Positions 34,290 to 56,852 of a stretch of 64,000 nt of DNA are shown here, in pieces. The position numbers and the translations under genes are program-made. Under the pieces are notes generated by a model. That model saw nothing but the letters and a program-made list of their open reading frames with translations, ran no database searches and was not told where the DNA came from. The DNA is from Schleiferia thermophila (GTDB taxonomy: Bacteria; Bacteroidota; Bacteroidia; Flavobacteriales; Schleiferiaceae), in NCBI RefSeq assembly GCF_003337435.1, contig NZ_QPJS01000001.1:698513-762512 (forward strand). The letters run 5' to 3'. Positions within the stretch are counted from its first letter, which is position 1. Every line of letters begins with the position of its first letter.

Positions 34290-35681
34290 ATGAAAATTAA
34301 AACACGTCTTACCCTGTGGTTTACCTCGATCACTGCATTGATACTCGTTTTATTTGCTGTGAGCGTTTTATATTCTTCCGCAAAAATCCGAGAACGAGAA
34401 TTTTTCAACTACCTTACCACCGAGGCGATTACTCGCTGCAACTTAATTTTTTCCGCTGGTCTCGATCCTGAGGTATTGCAACAAATCTACAAAGGCTCAA
34501 GGAAAAACCTCACTGAACCCGAAATAGCCATTTACGATCTCAATCACAAGTTACACTATCACGATGCTCCCGATATAGACGTTGTGAAAGAAGATTCGCT
34601 GATGCTGGGTGAAATTCAACAAAAGGGATATTTGCGTTTTTATCAAGGTAGGTGGCAGGTCATAGGATATCTGCATCGGATTGAAAACCAGGAGTATTTA
34701 ATTACAGCTGCAGCTTATGACAGTTATGGTCATAGTACACTCAACACATTGTGGAAATCCATGTTGCTAATCTCAGTACCATCACTTATTCTGATTTTTG
34801 TATCAGGGATTTTTCTCTCGAGGAAAGCTCTAGATCCTATAAGAGAAATCACGGATAAAGCGCAAAAAATTACGGCAACAAACCTGGATTTAAGATTGCC
34901 CCAAACCAATAACAGGGATGAGCTGTCGTCGCTCATTAAAACGTTCAACCGTATGCTGCAAAGGCTAGAAGATTCCTTTGAAGCTCAGAAGTCTTTTGTA
35001 TACCATCTGGCTCATGAAATCAGAACTCCACTTTCAGCCATCATCGCAGAGGCAGAATACCTTATCACCAAAGATCGAACTTCAGATGCATATAAAACTG
35101 GGTCGCAAGCCATTTTAAAGGATGCCCTCACCATATCTAAAATCACTTCCGGACTACTGGACCTAGCTCGTGCAAGCTATCATGTATCTCAGATTCAGTT
35201 TAAAGAAGTCAGAGTAGATGAAATTTTACTCGATGCAGGACAACAAGTCATGGATTCCAACAAATGCTTTCGAGTAGAAATTTCCTATGAAATACCATCA
35301 GAACACGATGGAGAACAACCGCTTACGATTTCTGCTAATGAATACCTGCTTCGCACGGCATTTTCAAATCTGATGGACAATGCCTGTAAGTTTTCGTCGG
35401 ACAATACCTGCAAAGTAACCATCAGCATGATAGAGGATGTCATTGACCAACAGCCAAAAATAAAAATAACTTTTGCTGACCAGGGGCCTGGAATTTCCCC
35501 TGATGACCAGGAAAAGCTGTTTCAGCCCTTCTTCCGCGGAAAAAATAAGGACCTTGCTGATGGCATTGGTATCGGATTATCACTTACCAGGAGGATTATA
35601 GAGTTGCACAGAGCACAACTGACCTTGCATTCAGACCCAAACGGTACAGTTGTACACGTAGTCTTCAGTTCGCAGAGATAG
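34290..35681 (+). CDS. Membrane sensor histidine kinase
   Basis: 463 residues. Two transmembrane helices (about 9-30 and 158-176) bracket a roughly 125-residue periplasmic sensor. Then come a HAMP domain (177-230, LDPIREITDKAQKI), HisKA with phosphoacceptor H242 in LAHEIRTPLSA, and HATPase_c with N box NLMDNACKFS, G1 DQGPGISP and G2 GIGIGLSL. The OmpR-type response regulator gene is the convergent neighbour (57 bp between stops) and is the obvious partner, though not in an operon with it. The stimulus is unknown. Confidence 0.92.
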   Translation: MKIKTRLTLWFTSITALILVLFAVSVLYSSAKIREREFFNYLTTEAITRCNLIFSAGLDPEVLQQIYKGSRKNLTEPEIAIYDLNHKLHYHDAPDIDVVKEDSLMLGEIQQKGYLRFYQGRWQVIGYLHRIENQEYLITAAAYDSYGHSTLNTLWKSMLLISVPSLILIFVSGIFLSRKALDPIREITDKAQKITATNLDLRLPQTNNRDELSSLIKTFNRMLQRLEDSFEAQKSFVYHLAHEIRTPLSAIIAEAEYLITKDRTSDAYKTGSQAILKDALTISKITSGLLDLARASYHVSQIQFKEVRVDEILLDAGQQVMDSNKCFRVEISYEIPSEHDGEQPLTISANEYLLRTAFSNLMDNACKFSSDNTCKVTISMIEDVIDQQPKIKITFADQGPGISPDDQEKLFQPFFRGKNKDLADGIGIGLSLTRRIIELHRAQLTLHSDPNGTVVHVVFSSQR

Positions 35682-35706
35682 AAGTTAGATAACTCCCAGA
35701 TATGGA

Positions 35707-35732
35707 TTAAGTTAAAGGGCCACTGAACTTAA
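35707..35732. other. Inverted repeat between convergent genes
   Basis: TTAAGTT (35707-35713) and AACTTAA (35726-35732) with a 12-base spacer, between the stop codons of the kinase and regulator genes. It could act as a weak bidirectional terminator, but the stem is AT-rich and has no T-run. Confidence 0.3.
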
Positions 35733-35738
35733 CAGAAA

Positions 35739-36443
35739 TTAATTGTCCTCTGGCTTCATCAAGATAAAACCCACTCCCTGGCGGGTATGTATTAGCTTTC
35801 TATCGAAATCTTTATCTACTTTCTTGCGCAGGTAGTTGATGTACACATCAATGAAGTTTGTGCCGGTATCAAATTTTGTATTCCAGACATTTTCGGCGAT
35901 CTCCTGTCTGGGAAGGACTCTTTCTGCATGTTTTACCATATATTCAAGCAGGTTAAATTCTTTTGGAGTTAGCTTTAACTGTTTGTCTCCCCTGTACGCA
36001 ATTCTTTTTTTTGTATCAATCACAATGTCGGCGTATTGCAGTACTTCCGCAATTGCTGCATGGGCATGTGTTCTTTTTAGCAAGGCCTTTATTCGTGCTA
36101 CAAGCTCCCTTATTTCAAAGGGTTTTACCAGGTAATCGTCGGCACCTGCATCGAAACCCTCAAGTTTGTCGTCGATGGTCCCCAGGGCGGTTAGCATCAA
36201 GATTGGTATTGAACCCTTGATCTTTCGTATTTGCTTGCACAGGTCAATGCCACTGATTCCCGGCAGCATAATGTCCGTAATCACCAGGTCAATGTCATAT
36301 TGCCTCAGCATTTTCATAGCTAAGTGTCCTTCATCGGCCAGGGACACTTCAAATTGATTTTCCCTTAGATTTTTCTGTAGTGCAGTGGCTATCCGGCTAT
36401 CGTCTTCAATTATCAAAATGTGAGCTAGCGTTCCATGCTTCAA
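35739..36443 (-). CDS. OmpR/PhoB-family response regulator
   Basis: 234 residues. The receiver domain (about 8-120) has IIEDD, phosphoacceptor D57 (VITDIMLPG), T86 and K107 (YLVKPFE). The winged-helix DNA-binding domain (about 135-230) has LTPKEFNLLEYMVKHAERVLPRQEI and DVYINYLRKKVD. The gene is convergent with the histidine kinase and followed upstream (23 bp) by the small TonB-like gene on the same strand, with which it may be cotranscribed. OmpR-family proteins bind direct repeats at 10-11 bp spacing, of which a set occurs before mgtC (56784-56822). Confidence 0.94.
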   Translation of the reverse strand: MKHGTLAHILIIEDDSRIATALQKNLRENQFEVSLADEGHLAMKMLRQYDIDLVITDIMLPGISGIDLCKQIRKIKGSIPILMLTALGTIDDKLEGFDAGADDYLVKPFEIRELVARIKALLKRTHAHAAIAEVLQYADIVIDTKKRIAYRGDKQLKLTPKEFNLLEYMVKHAERVLPRQEIAENVWNTKFDTGTNFIDVYINYLRKKVDKDFDRKLIHTRQGVGFILMKPEDN

Positions 36444-36466: not shown

Positions 36467-36943
36467 CTATTTAATCCTGGCATTGATTGGAATGACAAAA
36501 GAAAATTTCACAGGTTTTTCTTCTAATTTGGCAGGAATGATCTTCTGCTCAAGATTGTTGAGAGTTCTAACTGCCTCAATAGCAGCCATATCCAGAGTTT
36601 CGTGGACTCCTTTGACTACTTTTATATCCGTCACTGAGCCATCTGTGTCAATTATGAATTCTACAAATATTTTTCCTTCAATTTTGTTTTTGCGGGCGTA
36701 GTCCGGATATATAAAATTTTTAGCCACGTAAGTGGTTACACTTTTCATGAAGCATTCCTTTCGCTCCTGCTCTGAAGAGTACTGTTCACATCCCGGAAAT
36801 ATTGGCGATTGAGCGACTTCAGAAAATTTGTACGTAACTTCCTTCGAATCTGAAGGATTAACATCTTCGTATACCTGTCCGACTGCATTGCCGGTGAAAA
36901 AAACGAACAAAGCAAATGAACCGATAAAAGCTGTTTTTTTCAT
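36467..36943 (-). CDS. TonB C-terminal domain protein with signal peptide, no membrane anchor
   Basis: 158 residues. A cleavable signal peptide (MKKTAFIGSFALFVFFTGNAVGQ) leads to a short linker, the motif SPIFPGCEQ with a second Cys 13 residues on, and a TonB_C domain (YPDYARKNKIEGKIFVEFII ... PVKFSFVIPINARI). Unlike the paralogue at 37643 it lacks a retained N-terminal helix and a proline-rich span, so it cannot work as a classical energy transducer on its own. It is 23 bp upstream of the response regulator on the same strand. Confidence 0.8.
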   Translation of the reverse strand: MKKTAFIGSFALFVFFTGNAVGQVYEDVNPSDSKEVTYKFSEVAQSPIFPGCEQYSSEQERKECFMKSVTTYVAKNFIYPDYARKNKIEGKIFVEFIIDTDGSVTDIKVVKGVHETLDMAAIEAVRTLNNLEQKIIPAKLEEKPVKFSFVIPINARIK

Positions 36944-37642: not shown

Positions 37643-38356
37643 TTATTGCAAACGCGCATTTACCGGAATGGTAAACGACATTTTTACCGGTTTTCCTCTT
37701 TGCTTGGCCGGCTGAATTTTAGGATTGAGATTGTTTAAACTTTTTACGGCTTCAATGGCGGCCTGGTCGAGATTAGGATCCACCCCTCTGGCCACTGCTA
37801 CATTGGATACTGATCCATCTTTTTCAATAACGAAGGTTACAAACACTTTACCCTGTATTCCCAACTGCCTGGCGATTTCAGGGTATTTAAAGTTTCTGGC
37901 TATGTGCTGTTGAATTTTTAGCTGAAAACAGTTGGATCTTGACTCCTCATCTTTTTCCTTTTCACAACCAGGGAAAATAGGCTTATTCTCCACGATTGCA
38001 AAACTGAAAATTTCATCTACATCTTCTTCTACGACTTCAATAGGCTTAATTTCCTCGGTTTGAGAAGTTTCAGTAGATTCCATTACGAGTTCTTCCTTGA
38101 GCTCTACTTTGTCTTCCACTACGTTAATAATATCTTGGGGAGGCGGTGGGGGTGGAGGTTTTTGCTCTCTTTGCGTCACAATGACTTCCTCTTCATCTAA
38201 AACCACATCCAGATCTCCGAGATTGGCTAAGGTGCGGTCGTAGGTCTTCCACTCGATGACTATGTACACAAAAGACAAAGCCAGGAAAAGACCTATAAGA
38301 AAAAAGGTTAATTTTTTATTCTCCAGGTCAGCCTCGGGGGATTTTTTGAGTTCCAT
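37643..38356 (-). CDS. tonB: TonB family energy transducer
   Basis: 237 residues. A single N-terminal transmembrane helix (about 16-35) is followed by an acidic linker with a proline run (QKPPPPPPPQD), the Bacteroidota motif KPIFPGCEKE with a second Cys, and the TonB_C domain (KYPEIARQLGIQGKVFVTFV ... VKMSFTIPVNARL). It couples the proton motive force of the ExbB/ExbD complex to outer-membrane TonB-dependent receptors. ExbB/ExbD are not in the window. The C-terminal half is clearly paralogous to the unanchored protein at 36467. Confidence 0.9.
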   Translation of the reverse strand: MELKKSPEADLENKKLTFFLIGLFLALSFVYIVIEWKTYDRTLANLGDLDVVLDEEEVIVTQREQKPPPPPPPQDIINVVEDKVELKEELVMESTETSQTEEIKPIEVVEEDVDEIFSFAIVENKPIFPGCEKEKDEESRSNCFQLKIQQHIARNFKYPEIARQLGIQGKVFVTFVIEKDGSVSNVAVARGVDPNLDQAAIEAVKSLNNLNPKIQPAKQRGKPVKMSFTIPVNARLQ

Positions 38357-56783: not shown

Positions 56784-56822
56784 TCTAATGATTTTCTAAT
56801 ACTTTTCTAATGTGCATCTAAT
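56784..56822. promoter_or_regulatory. Four direct TCTAAT repeats at exact 11-bp spacing (probable operator)
   Basis: TCTAAT occurs at 56784, 56795, 56806 and 56817, each 11 bp after the last, so all face the same side of the helix. They end 23 bp before a -7 element (TAATTTTG at 56845) and 75 bp before mgtC. Direct repeats at 11 bp are the layout bound by OmpR/PhoB-type regulators. Confidence 0.6.
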
Positions 56823-56844
56823 ATCATCTTGAAAATCAACATTT

Positions 56845-56852
56845 TAATTTTG
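56845..56852 (+). promoter_or_regulatory. Probable -7 element for mgtC-mgtE
   Basis: TAATTTTG fits TAnnTTTG; transcription would begin near 56858, with a 39-base leader. The -33 position overlaps the end of the TCTAAT repeats and has no TTTG, which would suit an activator-dependent promoter. Confidence 0.45.

Follow-up and report, generated by a model that had tools for sequence, protein, structure and literature searches.

A four-box TCTAAT array, conserved in many Bacteroidota, that very probably lets a sensor-regulator pair switch on Mg2+ uptake genes

The 64,000-nucleotide stretch of Schleiferia thermophila DNA analysed here (the window) carries four copies of the hexamer TCTAAT in front of two Mg2+ genes, which raises the question of whether the copies form the site of a transcriptional activator and, if so, which regulator uses it. 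The copies start at 56784, 56795, 56806 and 56817 and the last one ends at 56822, as the initial annotation had it, with a period of exactly 11 bp. Single TCTAAT hexamers are frequent, with 11 plus-strand copies in the window. Three boxes at this period, with up to three mismatches allowed, were found nowhere in the window outside the array, and 100 shuffles of the window gave a mean of 0.05 matches; the exact three-box pattern is unique to the array across the 2.6-Mb genome. One extra genomic place (C1:441539-441577, 2-3 mismatches) was obtained at three mismatches. Since its full-site profile score is -13.7, against 51.8 for the window site, it was rejected as a second site and probably reflects chance.

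The Bacteroidota promoter consensus, as quoted in the part of PMC7366714 covered, consists of TTTG around -33 and TAnnTTTG at -7. The latter is represented by TAATTTTG, at a distance of exactly 22 bp from the last box. Judged by the distance expected between the two elements, the window spacer holds no -33 element at a usable position, its sole TTG ending 13 bp before TAATTTTG, and no conserved TTG-like stretch was seen across the spacers of 67 distinct related sites among the matches listed. The early reading of a -7 element without a -33 match just past the array was thus confirmed. Direct repeats of 10-11 bp, a fixed distance to a promoter without a -35/-33 element and association with a regulator made of receiver and winged-helix domains are the marks of an OmpR/PhoB-type activator site, and they were found here. 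The coordinates are collected in Table 1.

Table 1. Features of the array, its promoter, the downstream genes and the candidate regulatory pair (window coordinates).
Feature	Position	Strand	Basis
Putative activator site, 4 TCTAAT half-sites, 11-bp spacing	56784..56822	+	Sequence; layout kept in relatives
22-bp spacer, no -33 element; length conserved, sequence mostly not	56823..56844	+	Spacer comparison
TAATTTTG, the -7 element, after the primary sigma consensus TAnnTTTG of Bacteroidota	56845..56852	+	Sequence; consensus as quoted in PMC7366714 (part covered)
mgtC, MgtC family, 239 aa	56897..57616	+	PF02308 126.6 bits; PF21770 (C-terminal domain) 62.3 bits
mgtE, Mg2+ transporter, 459 aa	57628..59007	+	TIGR00400 312 bits, cut-off 233; MgtE_N, CBS, MgtE domains
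Outer-membrane protein, DUF5982 + Omp85, 484 aa	59034..60488	+	NF047779 474 bits, cut-off 200
Sensor histidine kinase, probable partner, 463 aa	34290..35681	+	HAMP, HisKA, HATPase_c
Candidate activator, a response regulator of the OmpR/PhoB type, 234 aa	35739..36443	-	PF00072 + PF00486

That two Mg2+ genes follow the array was borne out by the family scans, in which the second product has both the domains and the equivalog score of an MgtE transporter. The Omp85/DUF5982 gene is probably the third gene of the same operon, since it follows mgtC-mgtE in the window, in the relatives G001, G019 and G020, and at locus L142. At four other loci (L031, L062, L117, L134) it is itself the first gene after the site. 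The structure model of its product was too poor for use (mean pLDDT 34).

MgtC was searched for in 60 relatives including the own genome at a threshold of 1e-10, and matches were obtained in 10 genomes and none in 50. Three strong orthologues belong to the same family (G019, 73% identity; G001, 63%; G020, 58%), and the array was found upstream of mgtC in 3/3 of them. G019 and G001 have four boxes each, G020 has three exact boxes and one degenerate box, and in all three TAnnTTTG follows the last box after 22 bp (loci L006, L007 and L008). With these sites all held out of training, the 71-position profile scored 55.5 in G019, 65.9 in G001, 31.4 in G020 and 50.0 in G054, besides the value given above for the window; the best non-overlapping place in the window scored -31.0 and the highest maximum of 20 shuffled windows was -18.7. 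The array and its spacing are therefore kept before mgtC in the close orthologues as in the own genome; a loss of the repeats before orthologous mgtC genes, one of the grounds for rejection named in the initial annotation, was looked for and did not appear. The profile detected no site at the distant MgtC loci (L009-L015, seven loci in six genomes, 39-44% identity), therefore the regulon does not take in all MgtC proteins.

The full geometry of four boxes, 22 bp and TAnnTTTG is specific, unlike the bare three-box pattern. Among 395 genomes from the order, 9 contain the exact bare pattern and 3 (G168, G176, G207) contain its reversed control. Only in G000, G001 and G341 (Apibacter) is mgtC found downstream of it, the rest having a TonB-receptor-like gene (three genomes), a TolC-like gene (one) or nothing informative (two, L020 and L027). 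The bare pattern was dropped as a marker because the reversed control also matches and the downstream genes are mixed. The distance to the -7 element sorts the bare-pattern loci into their downstream-gene groups.

A phylum scan was carried out with one genome per species, (TCTAAT-N5)x3 being followed by TAnnTTTG within 10-40 bp, and it gave at least 120 stretches, which include close relatives and count non-independent events. At least 116 of them are from Bacteroidota, at least one is from Chlorobiota (L080), and Bacillota, Pseudomonadota and Bdellovibrionota contribute at least one each (L060, L109, L139); these last three fall outside the named spacing classes among the matches listed. The pattern permitted 31 gap lengths. 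Among the matches listed, 113 of the 119 sites with the -7 element up to 60 bp from the last exact box sit at 10, 21, 22, 32 or 33 bp. A fourth box with 4-5 of the 6 TCTAAT bases, unasked for by the pattern, is present in 59 of the 60 listed sites at 33 bp (TCTAAC in 45 of them), and since it lies in the extra turn, the layout is again four boxes plus 22 bp. The 22-bp class comprises at least 67 sites.

Mg2+ transport genes as putative targets, one mark of a PhoP/PhoQ-type system, were found here (mgtC-mgtE) and, taking MgtA, MgtC or MgtE within 4.5 kb, at 42 of the 57 22-bp sites with 1.2 kb of downstream sequence among the matches listed. The corresponding figure for the other spacings among the matches listed is 1/44 (1/27 at 21/32 bp, 0/10 at 10 bp, 0/7 elsewhere). 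At the 57 listed sites the first recognised gene codes for MgtA (34 sites), MgtC (7), an efflux adaptor (6), Omp85/DUF5982 (4) or a different outer-membrane-like protein (3), and the remaining 3 sites show none of these. The label reference proteins were drawn from the loci themselves, which match by construction; one representative each of MgtA, adaptor, pump, OprB porin, ExtI-like porin and outer-membrane protein was family-scanned, and the one MgtA protein so verified scored 1285 bits with TIGR01524 (cut-off 611). The labels TolC, TBDT, Usp and PPaseH and that of the second gene of L053 are our assumption from the look of the sequences.

A similar partition was obtained for the regulators. 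A regulator sharing at least 52% identity with the 35739 product, a limit picked after seeing the data, lies upstream of 31 of the 50 22-bp sites with 2.25 kb of upstream sequence among the matches listed, a weaker one was found in 3 and none was detected in 16; for the other spacings the listed matches gave 0/37 (0/22 at 21/32 bp, 0/8 at 10 bp, 0/7 elsewhere). The order regulator, kinase, site, Mg2+ gene is frequent at the 22-bp loci, and in Pedobacter caeni DSM 16990 (L115) a single locus contains the regulator, the kinase, the site and mgtC. The 22-bp spacing does not always denote a Mg2+ system, because of the 16 sites without a regulator and of three 22-bp loci (L119, L132, L135) which, among the matches listed, carry a regulator from another tree group and show no Mg2+ gene. 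Some 22-bp sites precede genes of an efflux-like or porin-like type, and no Mg2+ transporter was seen at them.

A Chlorobiota genome likewise has the 22-bp Mg-type site (L080 of Candidatus Thermochlorobacter; L185 and L189 of G738), and consecutive ORFs nearby match parts of MgtC and MgtE. At the Flavobacterium-type loci L021, L022, L024 and L092, arrays 32 bp from the -7 element precede a TonB-receptor-like gene, a conserved TTTATTTAGATTAAAT stretch lying between, and no regulator of the 35739 subfamily was seen in the DNA examined. Arrays 10 bp from the -7 element stand before TolC-like/efflux operons (L040, L041, L045, L083, L104, L105); the regulators present by such arrays (L041, L075) are 45-48% identical paralogues.

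The co-occurrence of site and regulator was counted in 395 genomes across the phylum, with four boxes, 22 bp and TAnnTTTG at up to three mismatches. The full pattern was found in 18 of them and its reversed control in 0/395, and the regulator in 27 at E <= 1e-68 and in 17 at 1e-73. At the stricter cut-off, which was picked after seeing the data, 15 genomes have both, 2 the regulator only, 3 the site only and 375 neither (Fisher p = 2e-22, the related genomes being non-independent); at 1e-68 the numbers are 15, 12, 3 and 365 (p = 2.5e-17). Site and regulator are within 3.5 kb of each other in 11 of the 15 genomes and at 5 kb in G620, and they lie apart in G606, G201 and the window genome. Sites without a regulator match were seen in G073, G698 and G586, with 7 regulator candidates scored per genome (G586 resembles the 10-bp class), and the regulator without a site in G650 and G732. 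The first genes past the census sites include mgtC, mgtE, mgtA, adaptors, one TolC-like gene and porin-like genes; L169 shows none.

The OmpR-type regulator gene and the facing histidine kinase gene noticed initially are indeed present in the window, convergent and with 57 bp between their 3' ends. Because the pair is 20 kb away from mgtC, its linkage to the site is drawn here by homology. The proposal of this regulator as the candidate was strengthened by G020, where a regulator 56% identical to it is divergent from the array and mgtC-mgtE, as well as by its relatives at the listed 22-bp sites and by the co-occurrence census, and the 35739 product is very probably the regulator of the array. 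G001 has a regulator of 66% identity, and no kinase was found there in the 12-kb region examined. At many related loci the kinase and the regulator are co-directional and just upstream of the Mg2+ site, whereas at 34290-36443 they converge, so a local rearrangement or inversion has likely taken place. Two proteins of the TonB-C-terminal type are encoded upstream of the regulator gene, at 36467-36943 and 37643-38356 (-), the former matching PF03544 and the latter judged by look; since the former lies only 23 bp before the regulator gene, the two may be co-transcribed.

A quick tree of 62 regulators contains a branch with 99% SH-aLRT which separates 22 rows from 40. The 22-row side consists of all 10 TolC/Usp-labelled rows, four further regulators from motif loci and eight from relatives, one of which is L017 of the own genome. 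On the other side are the regulator of the window, the 32 further Mg-locus rows, two outgroup rows and five more (G001, G020, G054, one adaptor locus and one porin locus), and the Mg-locus rows thus occupy one side of a branch, not a single starred clade. The regulators of L119, L132 and L135 fall inside the 22-row group, which speaks against a strict spacing code. Six positions from residue 150 onwards differ between the regulators above and below 52% identity (P160, E174, F197, I202, F226 and I227 in window numbering), and at 6/6 the window regulator agrees with the majority of its own group, an outcome that grouping by identity to it favours.

The kinase is the probable partner of this regulator. 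It is mostly 36-48% identical to the kinases beside 22-bp sites, only 29-33% to those at L037, L065, L119, L132 and L135 of the same class, and 28-36% to kinases beside other spacings. Five residues of its predicted periplasmic part (E78, H91, D92, D97, E101) are nearly invariant among 26 Mg-locus kinases and are candidate metal ligands; two divergent Mg-locus kinases (L112, L157) are without some of them. The structure model has a mean pLDDT of 83, mostly high in the sensor part, and the whole-protein fold search gave matches that mainly span residues 195-463, the kinase core.

A two-component activator with direct repeats before Mg2+ transporters is of a known kind, and by analogy it would work like the PhoPQ control of mgt genes. 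The PhoP of enterics uses direct repeats at 11-bp spacing, two copies forming the PhoP box, and PhoP/PhoQ, which acts on mgtA and mgtCB, is likewise an OmpR-class system with repeats before mgtC and Mg2+ transport genes. However, the box here is TCTAAT, in four copies instead of two and at a Bacteroidota promoter, and the proteins score nearest to the CzcR/CopR and CzcS/CopS models; in the family-model scan no PhoP or PhoQ model was among the best 25 of the 101 and 85 matches. CusRS, CzcRS and CopRS thus provide the best-scoring models for both proteins, and some related loci hold CusA/CzcA-like pumps, but both scores are below the family cut-offs (TIGR01387, 223.3 bits against 279.2; TIGR01386, 190.6 against 292.55) and Mg2+ transporters are the commonest genes under the 22-bp sites among the matches listed. 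Pho boxes are also repeats at one helical turn that replace the -35 element, and like them the array ends upstream of the -10/-7 element in place of -35/-33; the 35739 product, however, falls short of the cut-off both for PhoB, with 196 bits where 296 are required, and for the Bacteroidota PhoB model, with 180 bits where 270 are required.

The PhoPR of Riemerella anatipestifer is similarly a Bacteroidota two-component regulator with a genome-wide binding motif, as described in the part of PMC9603813 covered, which reports 583 peaks with the core TTTAACA and names no Mg2+ transporter target. It was rejected as the same regulator, the motif being different from TCTAAT. The TCTAA match in the covered part of the P. 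gingivalis RprY paper lies inside a primer, and the value of -4.5 for mgtA (BT0988) in the iron-stimulon table of the partly covered B. thetaiotaomicron iron paper was not used, since the covered part does not give the heading of that table. Magnesium is not mentioned in the covered parts of the Flavobacterium coevolution paper and the Riemerella two-component paper, and those of PMC9603813, PMC3646045, PMC10434189, PMC10197871, PMC5399024 and PMC7366714 do not describe this regulon. Among the open-licence papers listed by the literature searches, none was found to describe a conserved Bacteroidota Mg2+ regulon with defined site and regulator, and none on how Bacteroidota regulate Mg2+ uptake came up.

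From the array, its spacing, its conservation and its association with the regulator group and with Mg2+ transport genes, the following scheme may be drawn. The kinase would activate the regulator, which would bind the array. OmpR/PhoB-type proteins bind such repeats head to tail as dimers, and two dimers would thus probably occupy the four half-sites, all on the same helix face, in the place where RNA polymerase would read a -33 element. The fixed 22 bp to TAATTTTG would let the regulator recruit the primary sigma holoenzyme. Activation via polymerase contact is the natural reading because there is no -33 element and the distance to the -7 element is fixed. The promoter would drive mgtC-mgtE and probably the Omp85/DUF5982 gene. 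We have good confidence in this overall explanation, in which the array is the site through which a CusRS-like pair would switch on mgtC-mgtE; very probably it serves the same purpose in the many Bacteroidota that conserve it. As for the signal, our guess leans slightly towards low periplasmic Mg2+ rather than an excess of another divalent metal, PhoP-like Mg2+ sensing being only one possible signal because of the CzcB/CusA-like and porin-like genes under some sites.

The strongest competitor keeps the site and the regulator and changes the signal to an excess of transition metal or to envelope stress, the Mg2+ genes then restoring the Mg2+:metal balance. We consider it rather unlikely, and it stays in play because of the heavy-metal models to which both proteins score nearest, though below cut-off, and the CzcB/CusA-like pumps under some sites: 6 of the 57 sites among the matches listed begin with a CzcB-like RND adaptor followed by a CusA/CzcA-like pump (one adaptor-pump pair was scanned, the pump reaching 686 bits with a cut-off of 701), and some mgtC-mgtA operons run on into adaptor/pump genes (L049, L094, L115, L144). 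However, importers would be an odd first choice for metal detoxification at the listed sites with Mg2+ transport genes, and the paralogous regulators with other spacings already pair with TolC/pump loci. It appears improbable that the array is bound by another of the OmpR-type regulators encoded in the genome, with the 35739 product as a bystander. The recognition helix is largely shared within the subfamily, and TCTAAT arrays also occur with paralogues at other spacings, but the genome encodes just four OmpR-type regulators; the three besides this one share 33-37% identity with it, L017 among them lying in the 22-row group of the tree and two being distant enough to serve as outgroup. A chance or slippage-derived tandem repeat with no regulatory role, to which the short head-to-tail units and the background of the bare three-box pattern could point, is already contradicted by the conservation of boxes and 22-bp spacing in distant relatives, by the varying linkers and by an expectation of about 6e-10 four-box arrays in the window (dinucleotide model), and hardly deserves consideration.

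Activation of mgtC-mgtE by the pair thus being preferred, a wider reading can be offered tentatively, and as a whole we doubt it more than we believe it. Paralogous CusR-like regulators might use the same TCTAAT arrays, and how far the last box lies from the -7 element might help to keep their regulons apart: 22 bp would go with Mg2+ genes, and 10, 21 or 32 bp with genes of the TolC/pump, stress-protein-like and TonB-receptor-like kinds; the 22-bp sites might then form a phylum-wide Mg2+ stimulon in which Omp85/DUF5982, OprB and other porin-like proteins provide a regulated outer-membrane Mg2+ route. Mg-type sites stand directly before porin-like outer-membrane genes at L074 (OprB), L126, L164 (=L179; ExtI-like, below cut-off), L182, L187 and L188, which suggests that the response includes an outer-membrane part.

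Bacteroidota are a dominant phylum of gut, soil and aquatic environments, and the site with its regulator and kinase groups offers a testable counterpart of PhoPQ in them. A defined site and regulator would let the regulon be read from Bacteroidota genome sequence, and a function is suggested for an uncharacterised outer-membrane family (Omp85/DUF5982).
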